From Acidilobaceae archaeon (lineage in GTDB: Archaea; Thermoproteota; Thermoprotei_A; Sulfolobales; Acidilobaceae): a DNA stretch of 64,000 bases. Made by a program: the position numbers and the translations under genes. The stretch is taken from contig JANXEI010000001.1 in assembly GCA_025058835.1 (NCBI GenBank), forward strand, positions 128,561 through 192,560, given 5' to 3'. A model generated the notes under the pieces. That model did no database searches and had not been told where the DNA came from. It worked only from the letters and a program-made list of their open reading frames with translations. Of the stretch, positions 1-39,065 are shown piece after piece. Position 1 is the first letter of the stretch. Every line of letters starts with the position of its first letter.

Positions 1-91
1 CGTTGCCAGGGACTTCAAGCTCATAGGAGTCATGAAGGCCCTCGGCGCAGGCCCCCTGGAGCTGTTCCAGCAGTACTCGCTCCCCTGGCTC
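1..91 (+). repeat. 91-bp perfect direct repeat, copy 1
   Basis: Bases 1-91 are identical to 3073-3163. Both lie in the FtsX domain of the two permease paralogues. Identity stops abruptly at base 92, and the rest of the two genes is clearly diverged, so this looks like a gene-conversion tract. The true left end lies outside the window. Confidence 0.9.
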
Positions 92-14513: not shown

Positions 14514-14549
14514 GTTCCCTTCACGATGAGGTTTGGCGGGGGTTAATAT

Positions 14550-23352: not shown

Positions 23353-23464
23353 TCCAATGCCTATTGAGAGCTCCTGCCCCGCTGGTTTAAGGGTCTATTA
23401 TCCTGGACCAAGGGGACGAAAATGTTGCCTTAATTTATCTCCTTGGGCTGAGGGGAGGGAGCAT

Positions 23465-24964
23465 ATGGAAGAGAGGAAGCTCGGCAACTTCAAGGTCTTG
23501 GAGGAATATCCTCTCATAGAGCCCTGGGCCTATGCGCTGATCGTTGAGGACGAGGTTACGGGAGAGAGGAAGTACATAGTGAAGGAGGCCCAGCTCAACG
23601 AGGAGGAGAGCCAGGTATACAAGATATTGCTGAAGATCCTAGAGTGGGAGATAAAGCCTTACGACTTCAGCAGGGCTGCAACAACTCACGAAGCGGTCAG
23701 GGAGTACTTCGTCGACCAGCTGAAGAGGATAGTGAGCGTATACAGCGAGAGGCTGGGGGCCCGGAAGAAGGGATCCATAGATTGGCAGAAGGTGCTCTAC
23801 CACCTCCTGAAAGACACGGTAGGCTATGGTCCCCTCGAGGCCCTCATGAAGGATCCGTTCGTGGAGGACATAAGCTGCGACGGCGTAGGGAAGCCCCTCT
23901 ACGTCTGGCACCAGCGCTACGAGGGGTTGCCGACATCTATAGTTTTCCAGAGCGAGGAGGAGGTGGACTCCCTTGTGCTCAAGTTGGCTCACATAGCAGG
24001 GAAGCACGTGAGCGTCGCGTTCCCTATAGTCGACGCCATGCTGCCGGGGGGCCATAGGCTGGCGGCGACCTTTAAGAGAGAGGTGAGCGTCAGGGGCTCC
24101 TCTTTCACCATAAGGAAGTTCAAGGAGAAACCGCTCAGCATCGTGGACCTCATTATCCAACGCAGCATAAGCGCTGAGATGGCAGCCTACCTGTGGCTCC
24201 TGATGGAGAACAAGATGCCTGGCATAGTCATGGGCGTGACCGGCTCTGGCAAGACGACGGCGCTGAACGCCATAGCTACCCTCCTGAAGCCCAACGTGAA
24301 GGTTGTGACCATAGAGGACACGCCGGAGCTCAGGCTTACTCTGGAGAACTGGGTGCAGCTAGTCTCTAGGCACAGCTATGCCCTCACCGGCAGCAAGACC
24401 GGTGAGGTGAGCCTTTACGACCTTGTGAGGGTGAGCCTGAGGTACAGGCCTGACGTCATAATAGTGGGGGAGGTGAGGGGAGAGGAGGCCTACGTCCTCT
24501 TCCAGGCCGTCGCGACGGGCCATGGAGGGCTCACCACGATACATGCAGAGAACGTGAACGCCCTGGTCAAGAGGCTCACGAGCCCTCCCATGAACGTCCC
24601 GCCCAGCTATGTGCCCATGATGAGGTGGGGGCTGCTGGTAAGGAGGGTCAACCTGGGTGGGAGCACGGGGAGGAGGATGACGAACCTGTGGGAGATCGGG
24701 GAGGAGGAGCACATCCTCGTGGGCGAGTGGGATCCGGCAAGAGACGCGCATGAAGTTAGGCTTGAGAGGAGCAGGGTTCTGGAGGAAATAGCCTACCTGA
24801 CGGGCAAGAGCAAGGAGGAGCTCATAGAGGAGGTGGGGAGGAGGAGCGAGATATTGAAGGCCTTGGCAGTGAAAGAAATAAGAGACTATAAGCGGGTGGC
24901 AGAGGTCATCTACAGGTACTACAACGATCCGAAGAGGGTCCTGTCAGAGGTGAGAGTTGCGTGA
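23465..24964 (+). CDS. Type IV pilus / archaellum-type secretion ATPase (GspE/FlaI family)
   Basis: The 499-residue ATPase has a conserved N-terminal domain (VGYGPLEALMKDPFVEDISCDG), Walker A GVTGSGKTTALNA, an Asp box (VVTIEDTPELRL), Walker B DVIIVGEVRGEEAYVLFQAVATGHGGLTTIHAE with its His box, and a long C-terminal tail. This is the single-ATPase form of archaeal pili and archaella. It energises pilin insertion at the inner face of the membrane. ATG 23465 follows a ggggaggga site; the longer frame to 23270 runs through non-coding sequence. It overlaps the TadC-like gene by 4 bases. The TATA-like cttaattta is at 23430-23438. Confidence 0.95.
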   Translation: MEERKLGNFKVLEEYPLIEPWAYALIVEDEVTGERKYIVKEAQLNEEESQVYKILLKILEWEIKPYDFSRAATTHEAVREYFVDQLKRIVSVYSERLGARKKGSIDWQKVLYHLLKDTVGYGPLEALMKDPFVEDISCDGVGKPLYVWHQRYEGLPTSIVFQSEEEVDSLVLKLAHIAGKHVSVAFPIVDAMLPGGHRLAATFKREVSVRGSSFTIRKFKEKPLSIVDLIIQRSISAEMAAYLWLLMENKMPGIVMGVTGSGKTTALNAIATLLKPNVKVVTIEDTPELRLTLENWVQLVSRHSYALTGSKTGEVSLYDLVRVSLRYRPDVIIVGEVRGEEAYVLFQAVATGHGGLTTIHAENVNALVKRLTSPPMNVPPSYVPMMRWGLLVRRVNLGGSTGRRMTNLWEIGEEEHILVGEWDPARDAHEVRLERSRVLEEIAYLTGKSKEELIEEVGRRSEILKALAVKEIRDYKRVAEVIYRYYNDPKRVLSEVRVA

Positions 24965-26703
24965 TCTCTGCCCGCCTCATGAACGTGGTAGACTACGTTG
25001 CCCTCACCTACGCAGGCGGGATCGGGGCCTTCCTGGCAAAGACCTTCGAGCTGGAGGACGCCATACGTAAGGCAGGCATGAACATTTACCCCCCTCTGTA
25101 CGCAGCTAGGCTGTTCCTTGTAACGGCAGCGGCTGCCCTTATCTCTCTCTATCTCTCCGCGTTCCTCTGGCTCAGCCAGATGAGCATAGCTGCAAAGCTG
25201 CTCCTGACCCTCACCCTTTTCCTGCTGCCCGTCATCGTCTTCGCCATAGGCCTCTACTACCCGTCTTACAGAGAGGGAGAGAGGAGGAGCTGGGTAGACA
25301 CTGAGCTCCCCCTCTTCGCTGCGTACCTCACGGCAATGGCAATGGCTGGGTTGGACGTTACATCTACCCTGGAGAGGCTCGCGAAGTTGAGGACCTTCAA
25401 GGGGATAAAGGCTGAAGCTGACAAGATACTCAGCGACGTCAAGGTCATGGGGAGGGACCCGCTTGATGCGATAGAGAGGAACGTCTCGTATCATCCAAGC
25501 AAGCAGTTCAGGGACTTCCTACAGGGCTATGTGGCCGTGACCAAAACCGGCGGCAGCGTAGTAGGGTACCTGGAGACCAAGACGGCAGACATGTTCAGGC
25601 AGAAGATAGACGAACTCAAGCTCATTGCTGACAGAGTTGCGCTCTACATGGAGCTCTACATAATCCTTGGCGTCATAGTTTCCATATCGCTCTACCTGCT
25701 CTTCACCGTGAACGCCCTCATGCCCGGCAGCAGCGGCGGCTTTAGCTCAGTTCAACTGCTCATCTACAGCTTCTTCTTCATGCCCCTCACCTCCCTGGCC
25801 CTTATTTACCTCATTGGCAGGGCGAGGCCCAGGAACCCAATAGATGATCTGGCTCCCCTTGCCTTCCTCATAACATATGGGATACCCCTCTTCTTTGCCT
25901 CCCTCATCGTCCTGGGCTCTCTTACGGGGGGTTACAGGGTCCTCTTTGGAGAGGTAACGAAAGAGAGCGTATTAGGGGCTGTGGTCACCTCCACCATCTC
26001 CCTCGTCCTCCTCAGCTTTCCCTCTGTCATAGCGTGGAGGCTCAGGCAGATATCGACGCGAGGGGTGGGCAACTCGATCGCTAACTTCCTGAGAGACCTG
26101 GTGGAGGTCAGGAAAATGGGCCTCAGCCCGGAGAAGAGCATTATCCTGCTCTCCCAGCGCGACTACGGCTCCCTTAACCCAGTCCTCCGAAAGATGGCCA
26201 CGTCCCTCACCCTCGGCTTCGACATAGAGAAGGCAATCACTACGGCCCTCCGCGGCTACAGGAACTGGACTCTCATAGCTACCATGAGGTTCCTCTCCGA
26301 CGTCATTGTCTTCGGGGGAGGGAGCATAGAAACTCTGGACAGCCTGGCGAGGTTCAGCAGGAGCCTGGCCGACTTCGAGGAGGAGCTCTCCAAGAAGTTC
26401 AAGGTCTACCTTCTCATGCCCTACGTGGGCGTTGCCCTAGTAGTCGGCTCCAGCCTCCTCATGATCTCTTACATGGTGCAGACTTTAGCTCTCGATCCTG
26501 TGAGGGCTGAGCTCTTCATGGACGACATCAGGCTCACTGCCCTCTACATAAGTCTCGGGGCGGTGTTCAACGCGTGGCTCATGGGGCTTGTGGCAGGAAA
26601 GATAACGTCAGGCAGCGCCCTCGGGGGCCTCCTGCACTCTGTGATCCTCACCCTCATGGCAGGGCTAGTGGCCTTCTACATCATCAGCAGCATATCTTTT
26701 TAA
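24961..26703 (+). CDS. Type II/IV secretion platform protein, TadC/FlaJ-like
   Basis: The 580-residue membrane protein has two T2SSF domains. Each is a soluble helical block (around residues 100-220, LPLFAAYLTAMAMAGLDVTSTLERLAK, and around 365-480) followed by paired membrane helices. It should anchor the neighbouring ATPase and assemble pilins. The GTG start 24961 overlaps the ATPase stop; ATG 24979 is an alternative. The pilin genes are not in this operon but occur at 29.8-37.4 kb, and these are the only assembly genes seen in the window. Confidence 0.92.
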   Translation: MISARLMNVVDYVALTYAGGIGAFLAKTFELEDAIRKAGMNIYPPLYAARLFLVTAAAALISLYLSAFLWLSQMSIAAKLLLTLTLFLLPVIVFAIGLYYPSYREGERRSWVDTELPLFAAYLTAMAMAGLDVTSTLERLAKLRTFKGIKAEADKILSDVKVMGRDPLDAIERNVSYHPSKQFRDFLQGYVAVTKTGGSVVGYLETKTADMFRQKIDELKLIADRVALYMELYIILGVIVSISLYLLFTVNALMPGSSGGFSSVQLLIYSFFFMPLTSLALIYLIGRARPRNPIDDLAPLAFLITYGIPLFFASLIVLGSLTGGYRVLFGEVTKESVLGAVVTSTISLVLLSFPSVIAWRLRQISTRGVGNSIANFLRDLVEVRKMGLSPEKSIILLSQRDYGSLNPVLRKMATSLTLGFDIEKAITTALRGYRNWTLIATMRFLSDVIVFGGGSIETLDSLARFSRSLADFEEELSKKFKVYLLMPYVGVALVVGSSLLMISYMVQTLALDPVRAELFMDDIRLTALYISLGAVFNAWLMGLVAGKITSGSALGGLLHSVILTLMAGLVAFYIISSISF

Positions 26704-26739: not shown

Positions 26740-27939
26740 ATGGTCTTTCCGTTCAGGAGCATCGAGGACTTCAGGATCGAGCTCAATCCTGACCACGAGC
26801 TGTTCAGGAAGAGCGTGAGGGAGTTTGTGGAGAACAAGGTGATGCCTCGCTGGAAGGAAATAGAGGAGACAAACTCGGTGCCCCAGGAGATCTACCAGGA
26901 GATGGTGGCCCAGGGCTACACCGGCGTCGGCATACCTGAGGAGTACGGAGGGCAGGGAGGGGGGCTCACCATGGCCGTTATCCTCACAGAGGAGCTCTCC
27001 AGAGCCAGCGTGGCCCTCAGCGTTACTGTGGGCGTGAGAGATCTTTTCGTGGTCCCCGTGCTAAAGCACGGGAGCGAGGAGTTGAAGAAGAAGTACGTCG
27101 TGCCCGTGGCGAGAGGGGAGGCGAGGGCGGCCCATGCAAACACGGAACCAGGAGCAGGGAGCGACGTAGCAGGAATCCAGACTACTGCAAAGAAGGTCAA
27201 CAGCCACTACGTGATCAGCGGGAGGAAAATATTCATAACCGGCGCTGCGGAGGCCGACTACCTGCTCGTCTCTGCAAGGACTGAGCCGCCGAGGCCTGAC
27301 AAGCGCTGGTGGGGTATAACGACCTTCGTTGTAGAGAAGGGATGGGAGGGGCTCAAGATAGGGCAGAGGATCAGGGTCATGGGGCTCAGGGGGGAGCAGC
27401 CCTATGAGGTCATCCTGGACGAGGTGAAAGTGCCAGAGGAGAACGTGGTAGGCCCCCTGAACGAGGGCTTCAAGGTGCTCATGGACACATACGATCATGC
27501 CAGGATAGGCGTGGCAGCGCAGGGGGTGGGCATAGCCCAGGCAGCCTTCGAGAAGGCTCTGAACTATGCGCTCCAGAGGCAGACCTTCGGCCAGCCCCTC
27601 ATAGCCCACGGCATCATAACGGAGAAGATAGCTGACATGTACACCAAGCTCCAGGCCGCCAGGCTCCTCACCTACTGGGCCGCGAGCCTTGCAGACAAGA
27701 ACATGCCCGAGTACCTCATAGCGGCAAGCCTTGCCAAGTCCTACGCTACCGAGGCAGCCGAGTGGATAGCCAGGCAAGCTATACAGATCCACGGGGGCTA
27801 CGGCGCCGACTTCGAGACGGGGGTGGAAAGGTACCTCAGGGACGCGATAATAACTACCATCTACGAGGGGACGAACGAGATCCAGAAGCTCATCATAGCC
27901 CGCCAGCTGGTTAGGCAGGCCTTCGGCCTAAAGATCTAG
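26740..27939 (+). CDS. Acyl-CoA dehydrogenase
   Basis: The 399-residue flavoprotein has the family blocks GIPEEYGGQGGG, AHANTEPGAGSDVAGIQT (FAD contact), the middle beta domain with KIFITGAAEADYLLVSA, and the C-terminal helical domain ending with TIYEGTNEIQKLIIARQLV, which includes the catalytic glutamate. It oxidises acyl-CoA to enoyl-CoA in fatty- or amino-acid breakdown. ATG 26740 is used. A thiolase, SCP2 protein and DUF35 partner occur elsewhere in the window, consistent with acyl-CoA metabolism. Confidence 0.95.
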   Translation: MVFPFRSIEDFRIELNPDHELFRKSVREFVENKVMPRWKEIEETNSVPQEIYQEMVAQGYTGVGIPEEYGGQGGGLTMAVILTEELSRASVALSVTVGVRDLFVVPVLKHGSEELKKKYVVPVARGEARAAHANTEPGAGSDVAGIQTTAKKVNSHYVISGRKIFITGAAEADYLLVSARTEPPRPDKRWWGITTFVVEKGWEGLKIGQRIRVMGLRGEQPYEVILDEVKVPEENVVGPLNEGFKVLMDTYDHARIGVAAQGVGIAQAAFEKALNYALQRQTFGQPLIAHGIITEKIADMYTKLQAARLLTYWAASLADKNMPEYLIAASLAKSYATEAAEWIARQAIQIHGGYGADFETGVERYLRDAIITTIYEGTNEIQKLIIARQLVRQAFGLKI

Positions 27940-27948
27940 GGAAGCCAG

Positions 27949-28317
27949 TTGCCGAAGAGGAAGTTCGGGATAAGCGTGGAGGAGGAGCTGGCAAGGAAGC
28001 TGGACGAGGTATCTGAGAAGCTAAGGGTGGAGAGGAGCCAGCTGGTGGAGAGGGCAATTAGGGACATGCTGAGGGATCACTCCCACTCCCTCTTTGAGCA
28101 CGACTGCAGGGCCCTCATAGTGCTCTCCTGCCCCTCCGAGAGGGAGGTGCCAGCGGTTGGTGCAGATAACCTACGCATAACCCAGCTCCACGAGCACAGG
28201 GAGGGGCAGTGCGTCCAGGTCTTCCTCGTCTCGGGCTCAAGCAGCAAGATATCGACCCTCCTCTCCTCCCTCTCCAGGCACGAGGGGTGTGAGCTCCGCT
28301 ACATAGTCCTCCACTGA
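27949..28317 (+). CDS. NikR-like ribbon-helix-helix metal-responsive regulator
   Basis: The 122-residue protein has an RHH domain (KFGISVEEELARKLDEVSEKLRVERSQLVERAIRDML) and a C-terminal ACT-like metal domain with ITQLHEHREGQC, matching the NikR His-x-His-x5-Cys nickel site. The first of the four usual ligand histidines is not obvious. It probably represses metal-uptake genes in response to Ni or a related ion. The TTG start is 10 bases after the dehydrogenase stop, so the two may be cotranscribed by chance of packing. A metal/cobalamin importer with a palindromic operator is at 44.8 kb. Confidence 0.82.
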   Translation: MPKRKFGISVEEELARKLDEVSEKLRVERSQLVERAIRDMLRDHSHSLFEHDCRALIVLSCPSEREVPAVGADNLRITQLHEHREGQCVQVFLVSGSSSKISTLLSSLSRHEGCELRYIVLH

Positions 28318-28379
28318 CCCCCCTAAAAGCCCCCCCTCCCATAAAGTGGAGAGGGGCGGACATTTACTTAGCAGCTCTC

Positions 28380-29423
28380 GTGGCAGGGCTCTCGGCGCTT
28401 GCAGCAGCATGGGCGTATACTGAGGCCACCCTAGCGCTCAGAATAACGGAAGGCCTCTCCAGCGGCATCTACGCGAGCCTTCTGGGCTTCCTGGGCGTGT
28501 TCTTAGCCTCCCTCTCTCGCCTCCCCCTCCTCAGGCACCTCCAGCACTTCTCCCACAGGAGGCTAGCCCTCCTCCTCTCCTCCCTCCTAGCCCTCCTCTC
28601 ACTCCCAATTGACTCCCCCGTGCTGTCCTACGTCCTCCTCTCTGCTGCCTTCGGCATAGCCTCCGCCGCTGCTTTCTCTGCCATAGTTCACGACGAGAGG
28701 TACGAGAGCTGGAGGAGCTCCCTCTCCGCCCTGAACTCCCTCTCTGCAGGGCTCACAGCCCTCACCCTGTTCACATGGAACTATTTCCACGCCAGCTTTG
28801 CTCCCCTCCTCCTCCTTATTGCTGTATCCACCCTGACCATTGCCAGCTTCCTCATGAGGCCTCCCCTCCTCTCTGGCGTGAGCTTGCGGAGCCTCGAGGT
28901 CTTCTCTGACATCCTCTCCTTCCGTTCCAGCGCCGAAAGCTACCTTCACGCTCGTTGGGAAGCTGCAAGGATCGCGATGTTAATGGGAGGCCTTGGGGCC
29001 CTTAGGGTCACGGTGCTCTCCCAAGCCTTTCCAGAGAGCGGCACGCTAAGCCTAGCCTCTTACGCCGCTGGATCATCGCTGGGGGCTGCGATCGCTTTTC
29101 TCCACAACTCCCCCGGCCTCGTCTTCCTCCTCTCCCTCCCTCCCCTCGCGGGGGCTCCCCTCCTCCCGCCTACGGTTGAGCTGTTCCTGCTAGGGATCTC
29201 GGCCTCTTACGCTCAGACCGCAGCTATAACTTACGTCCTGGAGAGGAGGCCGAGGGACGTGTTCTCCGCCTCGGCCCTCCTCTCCCTCTTCAGCGGAGCC
29301 GGAGCAGCGCTCATAGGTGCCCTCTCCCTTGCTCGGCCAGAGAAGGCCTACCTCCTTGCCTCCCTCCTCGCCCTCCTCCTCCTGCTGCTCTCCCTCCTCT
29401 CGCATAGGAGGAGGTGGGACTAG
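28380..29423 (+). CDS. Polytopic membrane protein, MFS-like
   Basis: The 347-residue, very hydrophobic protein has about ten membrane segments and a central soluble loop (LRSLEVFSDILSFRSSAESYLHARWEAAR). The arrangement resembles a shortened MFS transporter, but the signature loop after segment 2 is absent. The first usable start codon is GTG 28380; upstream codons are open but lack a start. The 3' end overlaps the convergent pilin-like gene by 4 bases. The substrate is unknown. Confidence 0.7.
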   Translation: MAGLSALAAAWAYTEATLALRITEGLSSGIYASLLGFLGVFLASLSRLPLLRHLQHFSHRRLALLLSSLLALLSLPIDSPVLSYVLLSAAFGIASAAAFSAIVHDERYESWRSSLSALNSLSAGLTALTLFTWNYFHASFAPLLLLIAVSTLTIASFLMRPPLLSGVSLRSLEVFSDILSFRSSAESYLHARWEAARIAMLMGGLGALRVTVLSQAFPESGTLSLASYAAGSSLGAAIAFLHNSPGLVFLLSLPPLAGAPLLPPTVELFLLGISASYAQTAAITYVLERRPRDVFSASALLSLFSGAGAALIGALSLARPEKAYLLASLLALLLLLLSLLSHRRRWD

Positions 29424-29815
29424 GGGCTCTCCTCTGCCATCAGGAATGCCCTGAAGTACTTCCCGGAGGAGGTGTACACTCTGACCTCGTACACTCGACC
29501 TACGCTGAGCCTAGAGTTCAGCATACACGATATGAAGGCCGTCTCCCTTCCAGCAAGGGTCAACTCCTCTTTGCAGACCTTGCCACCGACCTCTACCTTC
29601 GTGATGGTGACTTCCTTCCTGCCCACGTTCCTCACGACGAGCGACAGGATGCTCCTGTTTGATGTAATTACGAGGGACGACGTCTGAGATAACTCCAACC
29701 GCTCGCCCTCCGGCGCGGCAGCCAGGGGAAGATTAACGAGCGCGAGGTAGGCTGCGATGCCGATAGCCGTAGCAAGGAGAACTGATATAAAGAACTCCCT
29801 GATCACCTCTCTCAC
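29420..29815 (-). CDS. Pilin-like secreted protein coupled to pilin gene
   Basis: The 131-residue protein has one N-terminal hydrophobic helix (FFISVLLATAIGIAAYLALV) and an extracytoplasmic beta domain whose pattern (LSLVVRNVGRKEVTITKVEV ... YEVRVYTSSGKYFRAF) mirrors the C-terminal domain of the neighbouring pilins. It lacks the canonical RRA-ISPVIA prepilin site. The GTG start at 29815 overlaps the stop of the pilin gene (GTGA), so it is a partner in the same operon, perhaps a minor pilin or pilus-associated subunit. Confidence 0.7.
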   Translation of the reverse strand: MREVIREFFISVLLATAIGIAAYLALVNLPLAAAPEGERLELSQTSSLVITSNRSILSLVVRNVGRKEVTITKVEVGGKVCKEELTLAGRETAFISCMLNSRLSVGRVYEVRVYTSSGKYFRAFLMAEESP

Positions 29816-30327
29816 CAGTTACAGTGATCTAGAGCAGCCCTCGCTGGTACGATGGCTTGGTACACTCCCCCGCTGACCGTGACCACCTTAACGAGATAGT
29901 TGCCAGGGATGGCTCCCCACGCATTATCGTCCTGCCACCTCTTGTCCGGCAGCCTGCAGAACCAGGTGGTCTCCTCTCCAGGCTTGAGCTTCAGCTTGGG
30001 GTTGACTTCAGGGTACTGTTGCCTTAGGGTGCTCCCCATGTAGTCTGCGTAGCAGTAGCCGAGGGTCCCCACTTCGATCCAGAGAAGCTCTAGGTCCTTG
30101 CTGCCCACGTTCTTAACCTTCAGCGTGACGTTGTTACACCCTCCGAAGCCTGGTTTGCTCGTCAGGCTTGACTCAGGATATGGATATATCATGAGAGCCT
30201 CCGTCGCGCCCAGATCTCCCCACAGGCCTAACAACCAGCCTCCAACGGCAGCTCCTATCACTATGGTTATTGCTATGAGGATCACGGTAGCGATGACGGG
30301 ACTTATGGCCCTTCTCATGGCCATCAT
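29812..30327 (-). CDS. Archaeal type IV pilin (class III signal peptide), pilin 1
   Basis: The 171-residue pilin has the class III signal MMAMRRA cleaved before ISPVIATVILIAITIVIGA, followed by GGWLLGLWG, then a beta-rich head with five cysteines. Starts at 30327, 30324 and 30318 are all ATG; the last gives the usual short leader MRRA. The N-terminal half and the upstream region (30224-30369) repeat at 37322-37467. It is divergent from pilin 2. Confidence 0.92.
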   Translation of the reverse strand: MMAMRRAISPVIATVILIAITIVIGAAVGGWLLGLWGDLGATEALMIYPYPESSLTSKPGFGGCNNVTLKVKNVGSKDLELLWIEVGTLGYCYADYMGSTLRQQYPEVNPKLKLKPGEETTWFCRLPDKRWQDDNAWGAIPGNYLVKVVTVSGGVYQAIVPARAALDHCNW

Positions 30328-30369
30328 GATGAGGTAGAACCTGAAGTAGCTTTATGGGCGAATTAATCA
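30224..30369 (-). repeat. 146-bp direct repeat of pilin leader and promoter, copy 1
   Basis: This covers the first part of pilin 1 plus about 42 bases upstream of its start. It aligns without gaps to 37322-37467 with about six mismatches by eye. The upstream part, including a cataaag TATA-like element, is identical, so pilins 1 and 4 share a promoter. Confidence 0.9.
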
Positions 30370-30508
30370 GACTGGCTTCTCCTCTAATACGTAGCCGATC
30401 CCCCTATACATCGAGAGGCAGCTATGAGTCATAGGGAAACATAGTAGAATTAGCTCTGTCTCGATTCTCCTAAATTTAGCTTTATGGGGGAGTGGGTCGT
30501 AACCGTAC

Positions 30509-30669
30509 GTGATGTCTATGAGAAGGGCCATAAGCCCCGTAATCGCAACCGTAATCCTCATAGCAATAACCATAGTGATAGGAGCTGCCGTTGGAGGCTG
30601 GTTGTTAGGCCTTTGGGGAGGCTTTGGGGACGTGGAGGCAATCAGGATATACCCGGATGCAAAGCTACA
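30509..30669 (+). repeat. 161-bp inverted repeat, left copy (5' half of pilin 2)
   Basis: This is the reverse complement of 37265-37425 with one mismatch seen by eye (aac versus tac). The identical block begins exactly at the start codon; the sequences upstream of it differ completely. Confidence 0.95.
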
Positions 30670-30967
30670 GATCAGCGGCAACGCAACCACGTTAAACCTT
30701 ACGCTAAAGCTTACGCTGAAGAACGAGGGTACGAGAGATGCGAGAATAAGGAAGATCATCGTTGAGGGCGTGGGCGAATGTCCCGGAACCAACAGTACCG
30801 TATCGCCAACTCCGTCACCTATCCTCAAGACGGGGGGGATTGAAAACATCACGTGTACTATGAACGGTGCCGGTAACAAAGTGACTGCTGGCGGTTCCTA
30901 CCTAGTGAAGGTGCTAACAGACAGCGGCGGCGTCTATCAGATAACTGTCACTGCAAGGAGCAGCTAG
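30509..30967 (+). CDS. Archaeal type IV pilin, pilin 2
   Basis: The 152-residue pilin has the class III signal MMSMRRA before ISPVIATVILIAITIVIGA, GGWLLGLWGGFGDVEAIRIYPDAKLQ, a variable middle with N-glycosylation sequons, and the conserved end SGGVYQITVTARSS. Candidate starts are GTG 30509, ATG 30512 and ATG 30518. The first 161 bases are a near-perfect inverted copy of pilin 4, while the promoter is different. The 3' end plus the terminator is also shared with pilin 4. Confidence 0.93.
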   Translation: MMSMRRAISPVIATVILIAITIVIGAAVGGWLLGLWGGFGDVEAIRIYPDAKLQISGNATTLNLTLKLTLKNEGTRDARIRKIIVEGVGECPGTNSTVSPTPSPILKTGGIENITCTMNGAGNKVTAGGSYLVKVLTDSGGVYQITVTARSS

Positions 30968-30970
30968 ACC

Positions 30971-30989
30971 TGAGGACTCCCCCTTTTTT
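30971..30989 (+). terminator. T-rich transcription terminator after pilin 2
   Basis: The sequence ends in cccccttttttc just after the stop. The same sequence occurs inverted after pilin 4 (near 36925-36945), so the terminators belong to the conserved 3' cassette. Confidence 0.6.
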
Positions 30990-31085
30990 CTACGCTCTTT
31001 TTGAGCAAGAGGCCCGTATTACCTCGCCCAGGGAGAGGAAAGTCGCACCCTCTGCGCAAGAGGAGCAGGGAGACGTGTCCCGAGG

Positions 31086-33836
31086 GTGAGTTATATAGCA
31101 ATGGTGGGAGGGGAGCCACCGGAGGAAGAGGGCGTGGACGAGCAGGCGCAGCTAAAGGCGCTCATATGCAACGTGCTAGAGGGACTCGCAGAGGAGCTCA
31201 AGAGAGTGCCCCGCGAAAGCCTCCCCTCCCTCCTGGCAGCGGTCGAGGAGTTGAAGAGGGAGTGTAGGGACGCGCAGCCCTCCCTCCTCCGCCAACGCCA
31301 GGTTGGGGAGAGGGCCTATGTGCTCCTTGCCGACAAGATTCTCGTAGTGAATGAGCTAAGGGAGGAAGTGATGGAGCATCTCCGGGGGCTGCCCCGCGTG
31401 TCTTACTTTATCCTCACGAACTTGGACTGCTGGGAGCTATACGAGGCGAGGGGGGAGCCGCCTCGATTGGCCTTGCTGGCGAGGGGGAGGGAAGAGGTGG
31501 GGGAGCAGCTGAAGCTAGTCATGCAGAGGGAGCTGCAGGAGGGGGGGCTCAGGATCTCCCTGACGGCTCGCGAGGCGGTGGAGCTGTACGTGAGGGAGCT
31601 GGAGAGGATGGTGAGCTACATGCAGGAGGCGCTGGAGAGCGCCCTGGGAGAGGGGTCGATCAGGCCCCTTTTCGAGGCCTTTGTAGCCCTCGCGAGGAGG
31701 CTCTACCCTCACGAAGATCAGGAGGGGCTGGAGAGGCTGCTTGTGCAGCACACCCTCCTCCACATGATGGCAGTCTCTAGCCTCGCCGCAGCCCTTGATC
31801 GACTAGGGGATCCTGTGGAGGTAGCCAGCGGGGGCACCCTGCCGCCGGGCCTTGCGGTTGCCGTCCCGTACCTCAACTGGTGGAAGGTCTACCTCGGGAA
31901 GGCCCCGGAGGCGGAGAGGCAAAAAATAGGGGAGGTGGTGAGCAAGATAGCTGCAAGAGCAGCGCTGGTAGACTGGGGAGAGGAGGAGGTCTTTGGAGCC
32001 CTCTACGAGTCCCTGCTGGGGCCGGAAAGCAGGAGGAGGCTGGGGGAGTACTACACTCCTGCCTGGATGGTCGACAGGGTCCTCGCTGAGTTCAGCCTGA
32101 AGGGCAAGGTAGTACTAGATCCCTTCTGTGGTTCCGGCGCTTTCCTCTTGGGAGCCTTCCGCAAGAAGGTAGAGGAGGGGGAGAGCCCTGAAGAGGCCCT
32201 TGAGAGCCTCATAGGCGTTGACGTGAACCCCCTAGCAGTAGCCCTTGCTAGGGTGGCCCTCCTCATGGAATATGTGAGGGTAACAGGAAAGCTGCCGCAG
32301 ACCTCCCCCCGCATCTACCACTTTGATGCCATAGCCGCATGGTTGGGAGAGGAGGCTCAGGGCGACCATCTCCAGGCAGGGGCCTTGGGAGACTATGCTT
32401 GGGCAGGGCTGGCAGAGACGAGGATCGACAGCCTCTATCGCATAGCTAGCCCAGACATCATCGTTACTAACCCTCCCTGGATGCGCCTCTCAGCCGTGAA
32501 AGCCGGCTATGCTGGAAAGCTGAGGCAATATGTCAGGAGAAGTCTCTTGAAGCTGGGGGCCTCTCCGCAGAAAGCGAGCACGATAGCTAACGGCTCCGAC
32601 ATCTCCTTGATAGCTCTAGCGCTGGCCTCCAGAGCGGCGAAAGAGGGCGTGGGCTTCGTGATGCCCGCAGAGCAGGTGTTCTCCAGCAGGGTCTCTGTGA
32701 AGGCTGGGCTTGTGGCAGCATATGCTCTGCTGAAGGACGCTTGCCCCAGCTGCCCGGTCAAGCTTGTCCACGTCAAGTTCGATGCCTTCCATCACAAGAT
32801 CGAGCCAGCCCTTGTCTTCGTGTTCAAGGAGGGGCGCGAGGGTGGCCTCTTCGAGGCCGAATGGAGGGAGGGGTGGAGGGAGAAGAGGCTCCCCCAGAGC
32901 TATGAAGAATACGTTAGACCAGCAGCGGAGTGGGCACGCATGACAAGGGAGGACCTGCAGGCCGAGCTAGAGGTAGCGGAGGTGAAGGTGGGGGGCTACA
33001 TCAGGGGCATATCTGGGGGGGAGAGGAGGGGTGGGGCCGAGCCCTATGCCGGGCTAAGGGTGGAAGAGGTGCAGGAGGAGGGGGGAGCCCTCCGGGTCAG
33101 GCTTACAAACCTAGAGAGGAGCTATCTCATCCCTAGGCGCGTGATGGAGAGGCATGAGGTAAGCATTTACGAGCTCCACTGCGGAGCCCTGCCGTATCGA
33201 GCTGAGAAGGTGAAGGCTATCCTTTCGAGGAGGGGGAGAAAGGGCCTTCGGGGCTTCCTGGGAGAGGCGATCGAGCTCCTAGCTGGGCAAATTTCTGAGG
33301 GGGACAAGAGGAGGCTCCTGAGGCTCCGGGAAGAGGTGAGGGTACAGCTGGAGGAGCTGGCAGAGGGGGAGCCCTACGTTGTTTACAGGCACAGGAGGCT
33401 CTTTGCAACATACGTGACGAGGGGCAAGAGGGGGGAGGCGGCCTCTGACATCGTCGTCCTCGTTAGGTGTAGGAGCGAGGAGCAGGCATACTATTATGCT
33501 GCCGTCCTCCACTACCTTGCCTTCTGCGTGAAGCGCTCCCGCAGGAGCTTCTTGCGAACGCTCTATCATAAACCCCTCGAGGCAATAGCGAGAGCAGGGC
33601 TGTCCTGGAAGAGGGTGCCTGAGGGGCTGAGGAGGGAAACAGCAGCGCTGTCGAGGGAGCTGGAGAGGCGGGCACAGGGCCTTTCGGGCAAGAGGCGAAG
33701 GCTCCTGGAGGAGCTGTGGAGGACGCGGGAGTTCCAGGCCCTGGCGGAAAGGCTAGACGGGTACGTTGAGAGGCACGTGGGCAAAGGGAAGCTGGAGGAG
33801 GTCCTGGACCTGGTGTCCACGAGGCCTCGAGGGTAA
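31086..33836 (+). CDS. N6-adenine DNA methyltransferase, type IIG-like, nuclease motif not seen
   Basis: The protein has up to 916 residues. The methylase core is at about 325-560, with EYYTPAWMVDRVL, SAM motif VVLDPFCGSGAFLLGAF and catalytic NPPW (DIIVTNPPWMRLS). The C-terminal 350 residues probably recognise the target site. The N-terminal 320 residues include FILTNLDCWELYE, which resembles the ILTNG-x-W-x-LY strand after the nuclease core of type IIG enzymes, but no PD...ExK is visible. It is therefore likely an orphan or modification-only enzyme. TATA-like ttatatag at 31091-31098 and GGAGG at 31121 favour a start at GTG 31134. It lies inside the segment flanked by pilin inverted repeats. 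Confidence 0.87.
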   Translation: MSYIAMVGGEPPEEEGVDEQAQLKALICNVLEGLAEELKRVPRESLPSLLAAVEELKRECRDAQPSLLRQRQVGERAYVLLADKILVVNELREEVMEHLRGLPRVSYFILTNLDCWELYEARGEPPRLALLARGREEVGEQLKLVMQRELQEGGLRISLTAREAVELYVRELERMVSYMQEALESALGEGSIRPLFEAFVALARRLYPHEDQEGLERLLVQHTLLHMMAVSSLAAALDRLGDPVEVASGGTLPPGLAVAVPYLNWWKVYLGKAPEAERQKIGEVVSKIAARAALVDWGEEEVFGALYESLLGPESRRRLGEYYTPAWMVDRVLAEFSLKGKVVLDPFCGSGAFLLGAFRKKVEEGESPEEALESLIGVDVNPLAVALARVALLMEYVRVTGKLPQTSPRIYHFDAIAAWLGEEAQGDHLQAGALGDYAWAGLAETRIDSLYRIASPDIIVTNPPWMRLSAVKAGYAGKLRQYVRRSLLKLGASPQKASTIANGSDISLIALALASRAAKEGVGFVMPAEQVFSSRVSVKAGLVAAYALLKDACPSCPVKLVHVKFDAFHHKIEPALVFVFKEGREGGLFEAEWREGWREKRLPQSYEEYVRPAAEWARMTREDLQAELEVAEVKVGGYIRGISGGERRGGAEPYAGLRVEEVQEEGGALRVRLTNLERSYLIPRRVMERHEVSIYELHCGALPYRAEKVKAILSRRGRKGLRGFLGEAIELLAGQISEGDKRRLLRLREEVRVQLEELAEGEPYVVYRHRRLFATYVTRGKRGEAASDIVVLVRCRSEEQAYYYAAVLHYLAFCVKRSRRSFLRTLYHKPLEAIARAGLSWKRVPEGLRRETAALSRELERRAQGLSGKRRRLLEELWRTREFQALAERLDGYVERHVGKGKLEEVLDLVSTRPRG

Positions 33837-33875
33837 AACATAATTCTCTTTCCAGCCATAGTAGGGTGATGCCGC

Positions 33876-36275
33876 ATGTGGCCCTATGCGCCCAAATTTG
33901 CTGCAGCCCTCCTCCTCATCGCGGCAATCCTTGCGCCAACGCTTAACCCGCTCCTCCCCCTCTTCCTCGACCCCTTCCACGGCCTTGCAGGCTCTGGCAG
34001 GATAGACCTGCCCTCAGGAGCGTTGAGGACGCCGGCAGGGGAGAGCAGGATAGAGTGGGACAGCGCTAACGTCCCCACGATCAGGGGTGAATCTGAGGAG
34101 GCAGTCGCATATGCTCTAGGCTACCTCTCTGCCTCCCTTAGGCTTTTCCAGGCAGACCTCCAGCGCCGCCTCCCCCAAGGCAGGCTGGCGGAGCTCGTCG
34201 GCGACATTGCGCTGGAGAGCGACAGGCTCATGAGGACCCTGGGGATGCACCTCTCTATCCAGAGGTCCTGGGAGAGGCTCAAGGCCTCCCAGGAGGGGCA
34301 GAGGGCGGCAAGGCTCATAGAGCTGTACGTGCAGGGCTTTAACGACTACCTCTCGCGCCTCTCCCCCCGCGACCTCCCTCCTGAGTACAGGCTCCTGGGC
34401 CTGAGGCCTGAGCCGTGGAGGCCAGAGGACGTGATGGCCACGCAGAAGCTCTTCACGATCATGCTAGCTCTGGACAACGACGATCTCATCCTAAACGAGC
34501 TGGTCAGGAGGTGGGGGGTAAGAGTGATAGTGGACCTGGACATGATAGAGAGGAAGAGGGCCACTCCCCAGGCCTCCTGCGCCTTTGCCACCCCCTGGTC
34601 CTCTGCAGCGAGAACCGTGGAGGGGAGTTATGGAAACGTGAGCTCAGCGGATGTCCTAAGATACTTCAGAGAATCGATGATCCTCTGGAGGGAGCTCTAC
34701 CCCTACCTGGGCTCAAACAGCTGGGCGGTGAGGGGAGAGCACACCAAGAGCGGCGTCCCCATCGTCGCTAACGATCCGCACCTTGCGCTCACAGCTCCGA
34801 GCCTGTGGTTCGTTGTAAGGCTCCAGGCACCGGGCCTTTCAGTAGCAGGCGTCACCGTCCCCGGCGCCCCATCCATCGTCATAGGCATGAACAGGGACAT
34901 CGCCTGGTCCTTCACCAGCCTCGTGGGGGACTTCGTGGACTTCTACTACTATGTTTGGAGGGGAGATGAGTACTTCTACCTGGACGACTGGCGGAGGGCA
35001 GAGAGGAGGGAGGAGGTCATCAGGGTCTGGGACCCGAGGGGGAGGAGCTATAGAGAGGTCAGGCTGACGGTGCTCGAGACTATCCACGGGCCAGTTCTCG
35101 AGAGGGGGGCTGAGAGGTTTGCCGTAGCCTTTACCGGTAGGGAGCCGAGCCTCGAGGTCCTGTTCCTTTGGGAGCTCTCGAGGGCAAAGAACGTAACAGA
35201 AGCCCTGAGGGCCCAGAGGCACTTCGTGGCGCCCGTTCAGAACTTCCTTGTCGCGGACAGGTACGGCAACATAGCTTACTCCCCCACCGGAGCCTACCCG
35301 CTGAGGAGGAACGTGCCCGTAATCAGGGAAGGGGAGCTTTTCGTTGTTAACAACGGCCTCCTCCCCTTCAACGGGAGCAGGGCAGAGGGGGAGTGGGTGG
35401 GCTACATCGATTACTCCCAACTCCCCGTCCTCCTGAACCCGCCGCTCCCCTTCGTGGTGACTGCTAACACCAAGCCCTGGGACGGCAAGTGCGGTGCCCA
35501 TACGGGCTGGCACTGGGCTGACAGGTTCAGGCAGGACAGGATAACGGAGCTGCTGAGGGGAGCTGTTGAGAGGGGGAAGGTGGGCGTGGAGGAGGTCATG
35601 AGGATCCAGGTGGACGTGAGCAAGGACCTAAGCCTCTCCCGCTACGTTTCCATCCTGCTCAGGCTGAGGCCCGACGCAGAGCTCCTCTCCTGGCTAGAGG
35701 CAGGGGCAAGGACGGAGCCGGAGCTCTACGAGCCCGCCATAGCCCTTTCCTGGATGGCCCTCTTCCACCAGGCCCTCTGGGACAGGCTCGGCAGCCCCGG
35801 CCCCGTCTCTTTCCTGCGAATGGAGTACGCTGAGGAGCTGCTAGAGCTATATCTGGCTGGAGATGAGAGGGCCTACCGCTACCTGCCAAGAGGGGAGGCG
35901 GAGAGGATGGCAGAGGAGACCTTAGTAAGGGCTCGCGAGATAGTGAGCAAGCACTTCCAGGGGAGAGCTGGGAAGTACGGGGAGTTCCTCTACTTCGACC
36001 CCAGGCACCCCGTTCTCAGGGCCTTCGATTTGCCTAGAGCTCAGGCCGGAGGAGGGTTCTACAGTGTGAGCCCTGCCTTCCCGTCAGAGGTCAGCGAGAG
36101 AGGAGCACCGGTGAGGGGCGGGGCTAGTGTAAGGCTCATAGCAGATCTCGCCGAGGGCAAGCTCTACGTGGCGCTCCCTGGCGGCTCTCACGGTAACCCC
36201 CACAGCCCTCTCTACTCAGATCACTATAAGAGGTTCTGGAGCAGGGGACTATATCACGTGCTCTCGATTAGCTAG
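33876..36275 (+). CDS. Penicillin acylase family protein (secreted Ntn hydrolase)
   Basis: The 799-residue protein has an N-terminal signal or anchor (FAAALLLIAAILAPTLNPLLPLF), the alpha-chain part VPTIRGESEEAVAYALGYLSASLRLFQADLQRR, and the autocatalytic site GSNSWAV near residue 282, whose serine becomes the N-terminal nucleophile of the beta chain. The motifs NDPHLAL and GMNRDIAWSFT follow, then NTKPWDGK further on. It should cleave amide bonds of acylated amines outside the cell; relatives act on N-acyl homoserine lactones or aculeacin, but the substrate here is unknown. It starts at ATG 33876, 39 bases after the methyltransferase. Confidence 0.92.
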   Translation: MWPYAPKFAAALLLIAAILAPTLNPLLPLFLDPFHGLAGSGRIDLPSGALRTPAGESRIEWDSANVPTIRGESEEAVAYALGYLSASLRLFQADLQRRLPQGRLAELVGDIALESDRLMRTLGMHLSIQRSWERLKASQEGQRAARLIELYVQGFNDYLSRLSPRDLPPEYRLLGLRPEPWRPEDVMATQKLFTIMLALDNDDLILNELVRRWGVRVIVDLDMIERKRATPQASCAFATPWSSAARTVEGSYGNVSSADVLRYFRESMILWRELYPYLGSNSWAVRGEHTKSGVPIVANDPHLALTAPSLWFVVRLQAPGLSVAGVTVPGAPSIVIGMNRDIAWSFTSLVGDFVDFYYYVWRGDEYFYLDDWRRAERREEVIRVWDPRGRSYREVRLTVLETIHGPVLERGAERFAVAFTGREPSLEVLFLWELSRAKNVTEALRAQRHFVAPVQNFLVADRYGNIAYSPTGAYPLRRNVPVIREGELFVVNNGLLPFNGSRAEGEWVGYIDYSQLPVLLNPPLPFVVTANTKPWDGKCGAHTGWHWADRFRQDRITELLRGAVERGKVGVEEVMRIQVDVSKDLSLSRYVSILLRLRPDAELLSWLEAGARTEPELYEPAIALSWMALFHQALWDRLGSPGPVSFLRMEYAEELLELYLAGDERAYRYLPRGEAERMAEETLVRAREIVSKHFQGRAGKYGEFLYFDPRHPVLRAFDLPRAQAGGGFYSVSPAFPSEVSERGAPVRGGASVRLIADLAEGKLYVALPGGSHGNPHSPLYSDHYKRFWSRGLYHVLSIS

Positions 36276-36350
36276 CTGACCGCCCCTGCTAATACAGTTT
36301 TATTTTCACCTTCTGAGCCTTACTTACGGAACCCCCCTCGGAGATGGGCT

Positions 36351-36764
36351 ATGAGCCGCAGTATTGCCACCGTGCTAATGATCGGGGTGGCAATAATCGT
36401 AGGCGGAGCCTTGGGGGGTTGGGTCCTAGGCCTCTGGGGGAGGGGGGCAGAGGCGGAGCTCCTCAAGATTCTTGATGCGGAGCTCCTGGTAGAGGAGCGG
36501 GGGGCTAGGCTTTTCCTTACGATCAAGAACGAGGGCAACAAGGACGCCCTAGTAATGAAGATCGTGGTGGAAAAGGTAGGGGAGGCAAAGCTAGAGGGCG
36601 TTGTCTTTGTTCCGGCAGGCAGGCTCTGGAGGACGCCGCCGGAGGGGCTAGTAATAGTTCCATACAACGGAGTCCCTATCATGTCGGGAGAGCCGTACAT
36701 GGTGAGGGTCATAACGGACACTGGAAACGTGTATCAGATTATAGTTCGCGCTCAATCTCCCTGA
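36351..36764 (+). CDS. Archaeal type IV pilin, pilin 3 (divergent)
   Basis: The 137-residue pilin has a short leader MSRS followed by IATVLMIGVAIIVGGALGGWVLGLWG, a beta head with LFLTIKNEGNKDALVMKIVVEKVGE, and the same closing pattern as the other pilins (YMVRVITDTGNVYQIIVRAQSP). It is clearly homologous to pilins 1, 2 and 4 but does not share their repeated DNA. The leader lacks the RRA motif, so processing efficiency may differ. It follows the acylase by 75 bases. The 180 bases between it and pilin 4 show nothing coding. Confidence 0.85.
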   Translation: MSRSIATVLMIGVAIIVGGALGGWVLGLWGRGAEAELLKILDAELLVEERGARLFLTIKNEGNKDALVMKIVVEKVGEAKLEGVVFVPAGRLWRTPPEGLVIVPYNGVPIMSGEPYMVRVITDTGNVYQIIVRAQSP

Positions 36765-36945
36765 TTCTGCTAAGAACACTTGATCCGCGAGCCAGCCTTT
36801 TTCCCTCTCATCCCTTGGCAGAGGGTCAAGCGACGACGGTAGTCCCAGGGAGGCTGGGCTATGGCATGTGAGCTCGACGCGGCCTCTCGTGAGATACGTT
36901 CCCTTTACCAGAAAGAGTATAGAGAAAAAGGGGGAGTCCTCAGGT

Positions 36946-37425
36946 CTAGCTCCTTGCAGTGACAGTTATCTGATAGACGCCGCCGCTCTCCGTCATCACC
37001 TTCACTACGTAGGAGCCGCCAGCAGTCACTTTGCTACCATCCATAGTACACCTAATGCTTTTAGTTTGCCCCGCTTCTAGGGAGAAGGGTATAGAAAAGG
37101 GTGTAGAAGTTGGCGTTGGTGTTGGAGGAAGGAGAGTGATGTTACCGGCAAGACATTCGCCCACGCCCTCAACAGTGATCTTCCTTATTATAGCATCTCT
37201 CGTCCCCTCGTTCTTGAGGGTCAAGGTGAGGTTGGCGCGAGTCTTATTATTCTGCTGAAACATTTGTAGCTTTGCATCCGGGTATATCCTGATTGCCTCC
37301 ACGTCCCCAAAGCCTCCCCAAAGGCCTAACAACCAGCCTCCAACGGCAGCTCCTATCACTATGGTTATTGCTATGAGGATTACGGTAGCGATTACGGGGC
37401 TTATGGCCCTTCTCATAGACATCAC
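36946..37425 (-). CDS. Archaeal type IV pilin, pilin 4
   Basis: The 159-residue pilin has the same class III leader and N-terminal helix as pilin 2 (MMSMRRA-ISPVIATVIL), a different middle (LPPTPTPTSTPFSIPFSLEAG, a Pro/Thr-rich spacer) and an almost identical end (SGGVYQITVTARS). It faces pilin 2 across 6 kb. Its promoter and leader are shared with pilin 1 rather than with pilin 2. The 3' cassette carries the same T-run terminator as pilin 2. Confidence 0.92.
   Translation of the reverse strand: MMSMRRAISPVIATVILIAITIVIGAAVGGWLLGLWGGFGDVEAIRIYPDAKLQMFQQNNKTRANLTLTLKNEGTRDAIIRKITVEGVGECLAGNITLLPPTPTPTSTPFSIPFSLEAGQTKSIRCTMDGSKVTAGGSYVVKVMTESGGVYQITVTARS
37265..37425 (-). repeat. 161-bp inverted repeat, right copy (5' half of pilin 4)
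   Basis: This is the partner of 30509-30669 in the opposite orientation. The bases between the two copies (30670-37264) contain both variable pilin bodies, the methyltransferase, the acylase and pilin 3. Confidence 0.95.
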
Positions 37426-37467
37426 GATGAGGTAGAACCTGAAGTAGCTTTATGGGCGAATTAATCA
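37322..37467 (-). repeat. 146-bp direct repeat of pilin leader and promoter, copy 2
   Basis: This is the partner of 30224-30369 in the same orientation. It contains the promoter and first part of pilin 4 and partly overlaps the inverted repeat. Confidence 0.9.
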
Positions 37468-37562
37468 AGCTAGCATCATAAATAATACTTGATTATCGAC
37501 AGAGCCCTCGACAGTGCCGATGCGGTTCCTCCACGATCTTTTTGTCCCACGACCCCGCTAAG

Positions 37563-37572
37563 GATATTTAAC
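37563..37572 (+). promoter_or_regulatory. TATA box for the small membrane protein / glucokinase operon
   Basis: The element gatatttaac is centred about 27 bases before GTG 37595, so the transcript should be leaderless. Confidence 0.55.
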
Positions 37573-37594
37573 TACCTATCCCTCCATAGCAGAG

Positions 37595-37954
37595 GTGAAA
37601 CGGTTGTGGGAGTTCCTGGCTGAGAGGCTCAGGGTGCTCCTCTCTGCCCTTACGATAGCTGCAGCCCTCTACCTCCTCCCGCCCCCCTGGGGGCCTCCTG
37701 CGGCTGTGCTCCTCTCAGGAGGCTTGCTGGGGGTCAGCCGCGCTCCTCCGCGCAGCTCCTTCCTCCTCGGCCTCGAAGCGGGGCTGGCAGGCTACCTCAT
37801 AGCTTACCTGCTCTCTGGCGGGGGGGAGCTCGGGATCAGGGTTCACCTCGAGCTCCTCGGGGCTGCAGGGGTGGCGCTGCCGCTCCTGTACTACTCTCTC
37901 GGCACCGGCGCTGCTGCCTATTTGCTCTCCTCGCTCAGGAGGGGGAGCTCGTGA
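37595..37954 (+). CDS. Small membrane protein, unknown function
   Basis: The 119-residue protein has a short basic N-terminus (MKRLWEFLAERLR) and about four membrane segments. No family motif is recognised. The predicted leaderless GTG start is supported by a TATA box 27 bases upstream. The stop overlaps the glucokinase start (GTGA), so the two are coupled; a sugar-related role is possible only by association. Confidence 0.68.
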   Translation: MKRLWEFLAERLRVLLSALTIAAALYLLPPPWGPPAAVLLSGGLLGVSRAPPRSSFLLGLEAGLAGYLIAYLLSGGGELGIRVHLELLGAAGVALPLLYYSLGTGAAAYLLSSLRRGSS

Positions 37955-38874
37955 GGGTGCTAGCCGTAGACGTGGGCGGCACAAAGGTAAGGGCAGCCCT
38001 CTTCGAGGGCACAGAGATGCTCTACAGGAAGGAGGTCCCCACGCCTAGGGCCGGCGGGCCGTATGCTGTTGCAGAGGCGATAGAGAGGCTTGCAGATGGG
38101 AGCTTTGAGGTAATCAGCGTGGCCTCCATGGGCCCCCTTGACATGGAGTCGGGCTGGGTCATAGCTGCCCCAAACAGCCCCATAGGCAAGTTCGCCATAA
38201 GGGAGCCGTTGGAGAGGGCCTTCGGGGTGCCAGTGCTACTGTACAACGATTGCGTGGCAGCAGCCTGGGGGGAGCACGTGCTGGGGAGGGGAAAGGGCAT
38301 GAGGGACCTCGTTTACGTTACCATAAGCACTGGCATAGGGGTGGGGGCTGTGGTGGATGGGGAGCTCGCGGTGGGGAGGAGGGGCAACGCGCACGAGGGA
38401 GGTCACATAGTAGTAGACCTCCATTCCGACCTTCAGTGCGGCTGCGGCGGATATGGCCACTGGGAGGCCCTCGGAGGGGGCGCGAACCTCTGGAGGGTTG
38501 CCCAGAGGAAGGCAAGGGAGTGGGGGGAGAGCTCGGAGGGAGCAGGGCTGGCCCTTGCCGGAGAGATGAGCCCGGAGCTCCTCTACTCGCTGGCGAGGAG
38601 GGGCGATCCCTTCGCCCTGCGGCTGGTGGACTACTTGAACTCCGTCCACGCTGCAGGGATCGCCAGCCTCATAGCCGTTTACGATCCAGAGGCGATATTC
38701 GTTGGGGGGAGCATATTCCTGAACAACGAGGACCTCATGAAGGAGAAAATAGAGGAGTATGCAAGAAAGTACAGTATCCTAGGCGTGCCGCCAATATATC
38801 GCGCGACTTTTGGGCAAGACGCCGTCCTCTATGGCGCTCTGGCTATAGCCCTCCGGCCGCCTCAGAGGGCGTAG
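37951..38874 (+). CDS. ROK family glucokinase (ATP-dependent, archaeal type)
   Basis: The 307-residue kinase has the ASKHA phosphate-1 motif VDVGGTKVRAAL, the sugar-site LYNDCVAAAWGE with catalytic aspartate, STGIGVGAVVDGEL, the ROK signature NAHEGGHIVVD and CGCGGYGHWEALGGG, where the last Cys of the bacterial zinc motif is His. This matches broad-specificity archaeal hexokinases that phosphorylate glucose and related hexoses at the start of glycolysis. Pyruvate kinase at 56.3 kb is the other glycolytic gene in the window. Confidence 0.93.
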   Translation: MRVLAVDVGGTKVRAALFEGTEMLYRKEVPTPRAGGPYAVAEAIERLADGSFEVISVASMGPLDMESGWVIAAPNSPIGKFAIREPLERAFGVPVLLYNDCVAAAWGEHVLGRGKGMRDLVYVTISTGIGVGAVVDGELAVGRRGNAHEGGHIVVDLHSDLQCGCGGYGHWEALGGGANLWRVAQRKAREWGESSEGAGLALAGEMSPELLYSLARRGDPFALRLVDYLNSVHAAGIASLIAVYDPEAIFVGGSIFLNNEDLMKEKIEEYARKYSILGVPPIYRATFGQDAVLYGALAIALRPPQRA

Positions 38875-39065
38875 ACCTTCATCTCCTTGCTCTGGACGTT
38901 GCCGGAGAGCTCCACTATAACCTTGACCTCCTGTGCCCCCTCCACGGGCTCCAGGTAGACCCTCTTGTAGCCGGCTTTCTTCAGCTCCTCTGCCACCTTT
39001 CTGATCAACGTAGTAGCTGTGGGCATCTTCCTCCTGATCTTGACCTTGACCTCTGAGGGCTTCAT
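38862..39065 (-). CDS. Small conserved-looking protein, unknown function
   Basis: The 67-residue protein (MKPSEVKVKIRRKMPTATTL, then a helix and two strands) has no recognised domain. ATG 39065 is preferred over GTG 39074; a TATA-like ctttaatatc near 39098-39107 on the minus strand fits a very short leader. It overlaps the glucokinase end by 13 bases and is divergent from the nicotinate phosphoribosyltransferase, sharing one AT-rich promoter island. Confidence 0.6.
   Translation of the reverse strand: MKPSEVKVKIRRKMPTATTLIRKVAEELKKAGYKRVYLEPVEGAQEVKVIVELSGNVQSKEMKVYAL

Follow-up and report, generated by a model that had tools for sequence, protein, structure and literature searches.

Near-identical 5' ends joined to divergent bodies characterize a small set of pilin genes in a hot-spring archaeon of the Acidilobaceae, and two of these genes, pilin 2 (p2) and pilin 4 (p4), form an inverted repeat on either side of a block of about 6.6 kb. 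The reading that we favor, as a whole and with some reserve, is that the locus comprises a few related archaeal pilin genes of the adhesion type next to PilB/PilC assembly genes, that their 5' ends are kept alike by homologous recombination while their beta-domains diverge, and that crossover between p2 and p4 inverts the block. Homologous recombination would maintain the part encoding the signal peptide and the core-packing helix and leave the surface-exposed beta-domains to diverge; as p2 and p4 lie face to face, a crossover in their common 5' ends would invert the block and swap the beta-domains behind the two promoters, in frame.

Pilin Genes and the Inverted Repeat

The window, by which we mean the whole 64,000-nt stretch of DNA that was analyzed, lies on a 606-kb unbroken contig of a MAG of 1.19 Mb (29 contigs, 92.65% complete), and its gene order was compared with that of five congeners (SKW39, G001, G002, G004, and G005). 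The features of the locus, in window positions, are as follows.

23270-26703, plus strand: PilB-like ATPase and PilC-like protein of the same pilus locus (T2SSE at 23270, T2SSF at 24961)
28380-29423, plus strand: left flank gene, collinear in SKW39, G005, and G004
29420-29815, minus strand: pilin-like protein that lacks a clear class III signal peptide and overlaps the end of pilin 1
29812-30327, minus strand: pilin 1 (p1), which diverges from p2 and has its N-terminus and 42-nt upstream region in common with p4
30328-30369, minus strand: upstream region of p1, 42 nt identical to that of p4
30508-30672, plus strand: left arm of the inverted repeat, covering the p2 start codon and first ~52 codons
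30509-30967, plus strand: p2, archaeal type IV pilin of 152 aa
30959-30988, plus strand: 3' flank of p2 (stop codon and T-rich tract), a 97% inverted match to 36925-36954
31086-33836, plus strand: DNA adenine methyltransferase of 916 aa, absent from the locus in congeners with a readable locus
33876-36275, plus strand: penicillin-acylase-family protein, in the orientation opposite to that in all five congeners
36351-36764, plus strand: pilin 3 (p3), more diverged, 3' of the acylase; counterpart of SKW39 pA (48%)
36925-36954, minus strand: 3' flank of p4, the 97% inverted partner of 30959-30988
36946-37425, minus strand: p4, 159 aa, a paralogue of p2 (77-80% at the amino acid level), convergent with p2
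37262-37426, minus strand: right arm of the inverted repeat, covering the p4 start codon and first ~52 codons
37426-37467, minus strand: upstream region of p4, 42 nt identical to that of p1
37595-37954, plus strand: right flank gene, a small membrane protein, adjoining a divergent acylase in all five congeners

The DNA methyltransferase, acylase, and third pilin that a preliminary description of this DNA had assigned to the block all lie between p2 and p4. The methyltransferase matches type IIG enzymes and PglX weakly and has a relative at 40-43% elsewhere in SKW39, and no restriction partner for it was found inside the block; an inversion would carry this gene along. Far from the pilins and unrelated to them, window positions 1-1381 and 3073-4450 repeat each other in direct orientation over 1.4 kb at 66%, apparently as tandem paralogous genes.

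Profile searches place p1, p2, and p4 above the cutoff of TIGR02537, whereas only p1 exceeds that of PF07790 (Pilin_N), with p2 and p4 just below it. The UpsA cutoff of 130 (NF046073) was not reached by p2 and p4, which score 52.8-54.2 bits. An AlphaFold model of p2, built from an eight-sequence alignment and of moderate confidence (pLDDT 79), has a helix at residues 7-29, which fits a class III signal peptide followed by a hydrophobic helix. The best PDB matches of this moderate-confidence model are archaeal pili, at TM scores of about 0.5-0.6 (Pyrobaculum 6w8u, Sulfolobus acidocaldarius AAP 8q30, Pyrobaculum calidifontis 8fk7, and Sulfolobus solfataricus 6w8x). The predicted signal peptide and helix, the beta-rich domain, and the nearby PilB/PilC genes all point to membership in the archaeal type IV pilins. 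As modeled, the repeat spans the helix and the next turn, and the part that would be swapped is the beta-domain.

The two arms of the p2/p4 repeat match over 165 nt with only two mismatches, at 30547 and 30670, leaving perfect runs of 39, 122, and 2 nt; the repeat had first been described, correctly, as near-perfect over 161 bases with one mismatch, and is here extended. It begins 1 nt ahead of the GTG codons of p2 (30509) and p4 (37425), and no alignment of the DNA upstream of these two genes is possible. None of 10,000 codon-alignment shuffles reached the 122-column run of identity (shuffle maximum, 64). Beyond the arms, the two genes remain homologous across their bodies and into the sequence after the stop codons (30508-31003 versus 36909-37426, 80% over 532 columns), making p2 and p4 full-length paralogues with a hypervariable middle at codons about 51-64 and 89-122. 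A simulated p2/p4 crossover yields two intact open reading frames of 159 and 152 aa with exactly swapped bodies, bearing out the in-frame exchange that had been proposed.

The genome, at 92.65% completeness, contains no serine recombinase and no match to PF01548, the IS110/Piv-type family, and its one tyrosine recombinase gene (Xer-like) is on another contig; no tRNA or integration site was found at the locus. Serine, IS110/Piv-type, and local tyrosine recombinases thus offer no candidate for an inverting enzyme, which leaves general homologous recombination as the likely agent, as the preliminary description had supposed.

Homogenization of the 5' Ends

Silent sites separate recent homogenization from selection on the protein. 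Between p2 and p4, 2 of 51 synonymous codons differ within the first 51 codons, compared with 14 of 60 in the remaining gene (Fisher P = 0.005). Over the same N-terminal stretch, p2 and SKW39 pC differ at 22 of 43 synonymous codons (P = 1e-7 against the p2/p4 count). Protein selection on the N-terminus alone was ruled out as the cause of the p2/p4 identity, because the synonymous sites are also near-identical. The SKW39 pair, pC and pD, differs at 10 of 49 synonymous codons against the 22 of 43 between species (P = 0.002). Since the pair within a species is more alike at silent sites than genes across species, each species has homogenized its own pair, and the silent sites indicate that the 5' ends of p2 and p4 were homogenized recently.

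Pilin 1 takes part as well. Its match to p4 is a mosaic, with 42 identical nucleotides upstream, about 48 coding bases with several mismatches, and then a 59-nt identical run, and such a patchwork is the mark of gene conversion. With p2 it makes up another inverted repeat, shorter than the first, whose 145-nt arms match at 86% and lie 183 nt apart. This repeat could flip the small region between the two genes, which would explain how a p1-like promoter came to stand before the p2-like body of p4. p1, p2, and p4 are three recombining genes, beyond the p2/p4 pair first proposed. The earlier statement that the promoters outside the repeat differ therefore stands for p2 versus p4 and fails for p4 versus p1, where 42 nt are identical. 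A promoter common to p4 and p1, together with the near-identical upstream DNA of the SKW39 pair, looks more like general homogenization among related pilins than like a promoter switch built for that purpose.

The 181-nt p1-p2 intergenic region (30328-30508) is bordered by these inverted 5' ends of 145 nt at 86%. The motif TAGCTTTATGGG occurs twice on its plus strand (30347-30358 and 30477-30488), approximately equidistant from each start codon.

Orientation of the Block among Relatives

A scan of genome contigs with the acylase identified SKW39, an Acidilobaceae MAG, as the only near relative, and the acylase tree joins the window and SKW39 as sisters with support of 100/100. Alignment by blastn places window positions 27904-29423 and 37545-38888 on one strand of SKW39 and 33942-36259 on the other. 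The order in SKW39 is left flank (+), pD (+), pC (-), pB (-), pA (-), acylase (-), and right flank (+), and the order in the window is left flank (+), pilin-like gene (-), p1 (-), p2 (+), methyltransferase (+), acylase (+), p3 (+), p4 (-), and right flank (+). G005 has the left flank, one pilin (-), the acylase (-), and the right flank; G004 is like it as far as its contigs reach, with a contig break inside the pilin N-terminus. In G001 and G002 the acylase is divergent from the right flank gene, and no pilin is present there. The acylase and the right flank gene are thus divergent in all five congeners and flipped in the window only. In outgroup genera these two genes stand in tandem, with no pilins there.

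Fixed orientation in all relatives had been named beforehand as an observation that would speak against an invertible block; the window differs in orientation from SKW39 while the flanks are collinear, an outcome in favor of the proposal. The difference lies between close relatives, as would be expected of a locus inverted by homologous recombination, and these are sister species, not strains. From the gene orders, at least one inversion separates the window from SKW39, and its simplest placement is on the window lineage. The tandem arrangement of the outgroup makes the polarity uncertain, and the window state could be ancestral given two inversions elsewhere; with either polarity, the window and SKW39 still differ by at least one inversion. 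Because the window also differs from SKW39 beside the repeats, by extra pilins and the methyltransferase, the inversion breakpoints are not assignable to p2 and p4.

The acylase and small-membrane-protein genes are neighbors throughout the family, in tandem in the outgroup genera, divergent in the genus, and separated by pilins in the window. About 590 nt lie between them in SKW39 (L037, 7145-7734), with what seems to be a small minus-strand membrane-protein reading frame that was not seen in the other species.

Recombination between such pilin genes has probably flipped the block at least once, and we infer that the inversion between species was a p2-p4 crossover made by the general recombination machinery. 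A pilin copy and the methyltransferase may have been placed between the acylase and the right flank, after which a pilin-pilin crossover would have inverted the block. Alternatively, the whole pilin-acylase block may have been inverted at intergenic ends, with p1, p2, and the methyltransferase added later. The two scenarios take a similar number of steps, and we prefer the first because its recombination substrate is already at hand.

Pilin Loci across the Sulfolobales

We surveyed 73 pilin loci of Sulfolobales, among which 36 contain at least two pilins and 12 have pilins on both strands. High-identity inverted segments were found in the window, in SKW39, and in L127 (411 nt, 97%), and high-identity direct segments in L144 (148 nt, 100%), L128, and L040 (75 nt, 96%). 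Because the shared segments occur both inverted and direct, homogenized 5' ends are a wider habit that is independent of orientation.

Individual loci vary in form. L144 (G078:C41, 9854-10001 and 10488-10635) is a tandem pilin cluster from another Sulfolobales family whose 148-nt direct segment lies at the 5' ends, possibly a cassette-like pilin array. In L127 (genome G151, 4908-5318 and 14479-14883), transposase-like genes lie between the two opposite-strand pilins, and the pair resembles the published pilA1/pilA2 arrangement of Sulfolobus islandicus. L115 (G053:C1, 7480-11604) holds several pilins on both strands with an identical N-terminal protein sequence and a DNA identity of only 71-80%, the same pattern at an older stage. 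The high-identity inverted repeats of L117 in G059 were set aside as a further case, as they lie on either side of a TnpB-like transposase gene and probably represent the ends of an insertion sequence.

Alternative Explanations

A possible but rather doubtful alternative is static duplication, in which gene conversion without crossovers maintains the 5' ends and the acylase block was inverted separately, at intergenic breakpoints. Copies in direct orientation, in L040, L128, and L144, likewise combine a conserved 5' end with a variable middle, and inverted orientation is therefore not needed for the pattern. Since the SKW39 pair (235 nt at 92%, with upstream DNA forming part of the repeat) sits beside the acylase block and not around it, the window order is also reachable from an SKW39-like order through an inversion of the entire pilin-acylase block with intergenic endpoints and the addition of p1, p2, and the methyltransferase. 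The outgroup genera, with their different acylase arrangement, likewise indicate that orientation relative to the right flank can change without pilins. These last two points count against a p2/p4 crossover as well as for static duplication. However, static duplication needs an inversion without known end repeats although long inverted repeats sit at explanatory sites, and it would part crossover from conversion, which are products of the same repair pathway.

A reversible phase-variation switch, in which p2/p4 recombination would be frequent, both orientations would occur in one population, and each promoter would drive either body, is in our judgment unlikely. Both recombinants are in frame, the p2 and p4 upstream regions differ, and the block orientation differs between sister species. 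Variation could also pay, as Sulfolobus pili are virus receptors and pilin loss leads to resistance (PMC7217056). Yet the p4 promoter is that of p1, and the SKW39 pair has its upstream DNA within the repeat, so that a body swap there would change little. The lack of an invertase counts mildly against frequent switching, as does the unbroken 606-kb contig, since it speaks against both orientations being frequent in the sample, and a read-based survey detected no inversion signal in six archaeal data sets (PMC5903667). We are similarly skeptical of an invertase-free archaeal pilin phase variation in which the 6.6-kb flip, with its methyltransferase and acylase, would swap surface domains between two promoters while gene conversion from a third pilin gene renews promoters and 5' ends. 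Under the crossover-and-homogenization reading that we favor, the expectation is instead that the locus rearranges and undergoes gene conversion only rarely, over evolutionary time, and that this diversifies a virus- and surface-facing filament; the earlier interpretation is, overall, partly supported.

An assembly artefact, with short reads unable to phase the 165-nt repeat, the block joined the wrong way, and a true order like that of the congeners, is quite improbable. In its favor, the MAG is in 29 contigs, the opposite orientation would leave the same local sequence outside the arms, and a G004 contig breaks in a pilin N-terminus. Against it, the longest perfect stretch of 122 nt can be covered by 150-nt reads or resolved in k=127 graphs and is spanned by paired reads, and the flipped order would still leave the methyltransferase and a pilin between the acylase and the right flank, unlike any congener.

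Relation to Known Pilin Systems

Pilin inversion in Moraxella bovis and Moraxella lacunata uses a dedicated enzyme, Piv, an IS110-like DEDD invertase. The p2/p4 sites resemble that system in their predicted effect, as the inverted sites lie where two pilin genes share a conserved 5' portion and inversion there would exchange the bodies. The window differs in coming from a genome that, at 92.65% completeness, has no PF01548 match. In Neisseria, homologous recombination between pilE and pilS exchanges pilin segments bordered by conserved sequence and makes use of silent partial copies; the window pilins, by contrast, are all complete reading frames with start codons.

Among archaea, the PilA1-6 pilins of Haloferax volcanii share a nearly identical hydrophobic domain at the N-terminus but differ in their bodies (PMC4371748). 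That conservation is described at the protein level, whereas in the window silent sites are homogenized too and two of the genes form an inverted repeat. The preliminary description had called archaeal equivalents unfamiliar; no precedent for archaeal pilin inversion or archaeal invertons was found in the open-access literature, but paired pilins are published. In S. islandicus, the adhesion pilin genes pilA1 and pilA2 are nearly identical and lie near each other on opposite strands; either one suffices for piliation, and the pair is maintained across genomes (PMC7217056). The window likewise has pilins with near-identical starts, close together on opposite strands. The resemblance ends at the bodies, as pilA1 and pilA2 are described there as near-identical or identical over whole genes, whereas the window pair is so only at the 5' end. 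That study reports deletions under virus pressure and, within its accessible part, no inversion between the genes; loss of both pilins gave resistance to several SSV and SIRV viruses (PMC7217056), which supplies a plausible selective reason for pilin variation.

Paired recombining pilins and pilin inversion are thus already known, and a version in an archaeon that exchanges bodies without an invertase would be a new variation on them. Several Sulfolobales viruses enter by way of pili, and there are few records of archaea varying their surface through DNA rearrangement. The locus offers a concrete case that is testable by PCR, with defined junctions and with sister species whose orientations are already different. 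It suggests how archaea may hold the core of the pilus constant, with recombination uniting the 5' halves of the pilin genes while the surface domains diversify.
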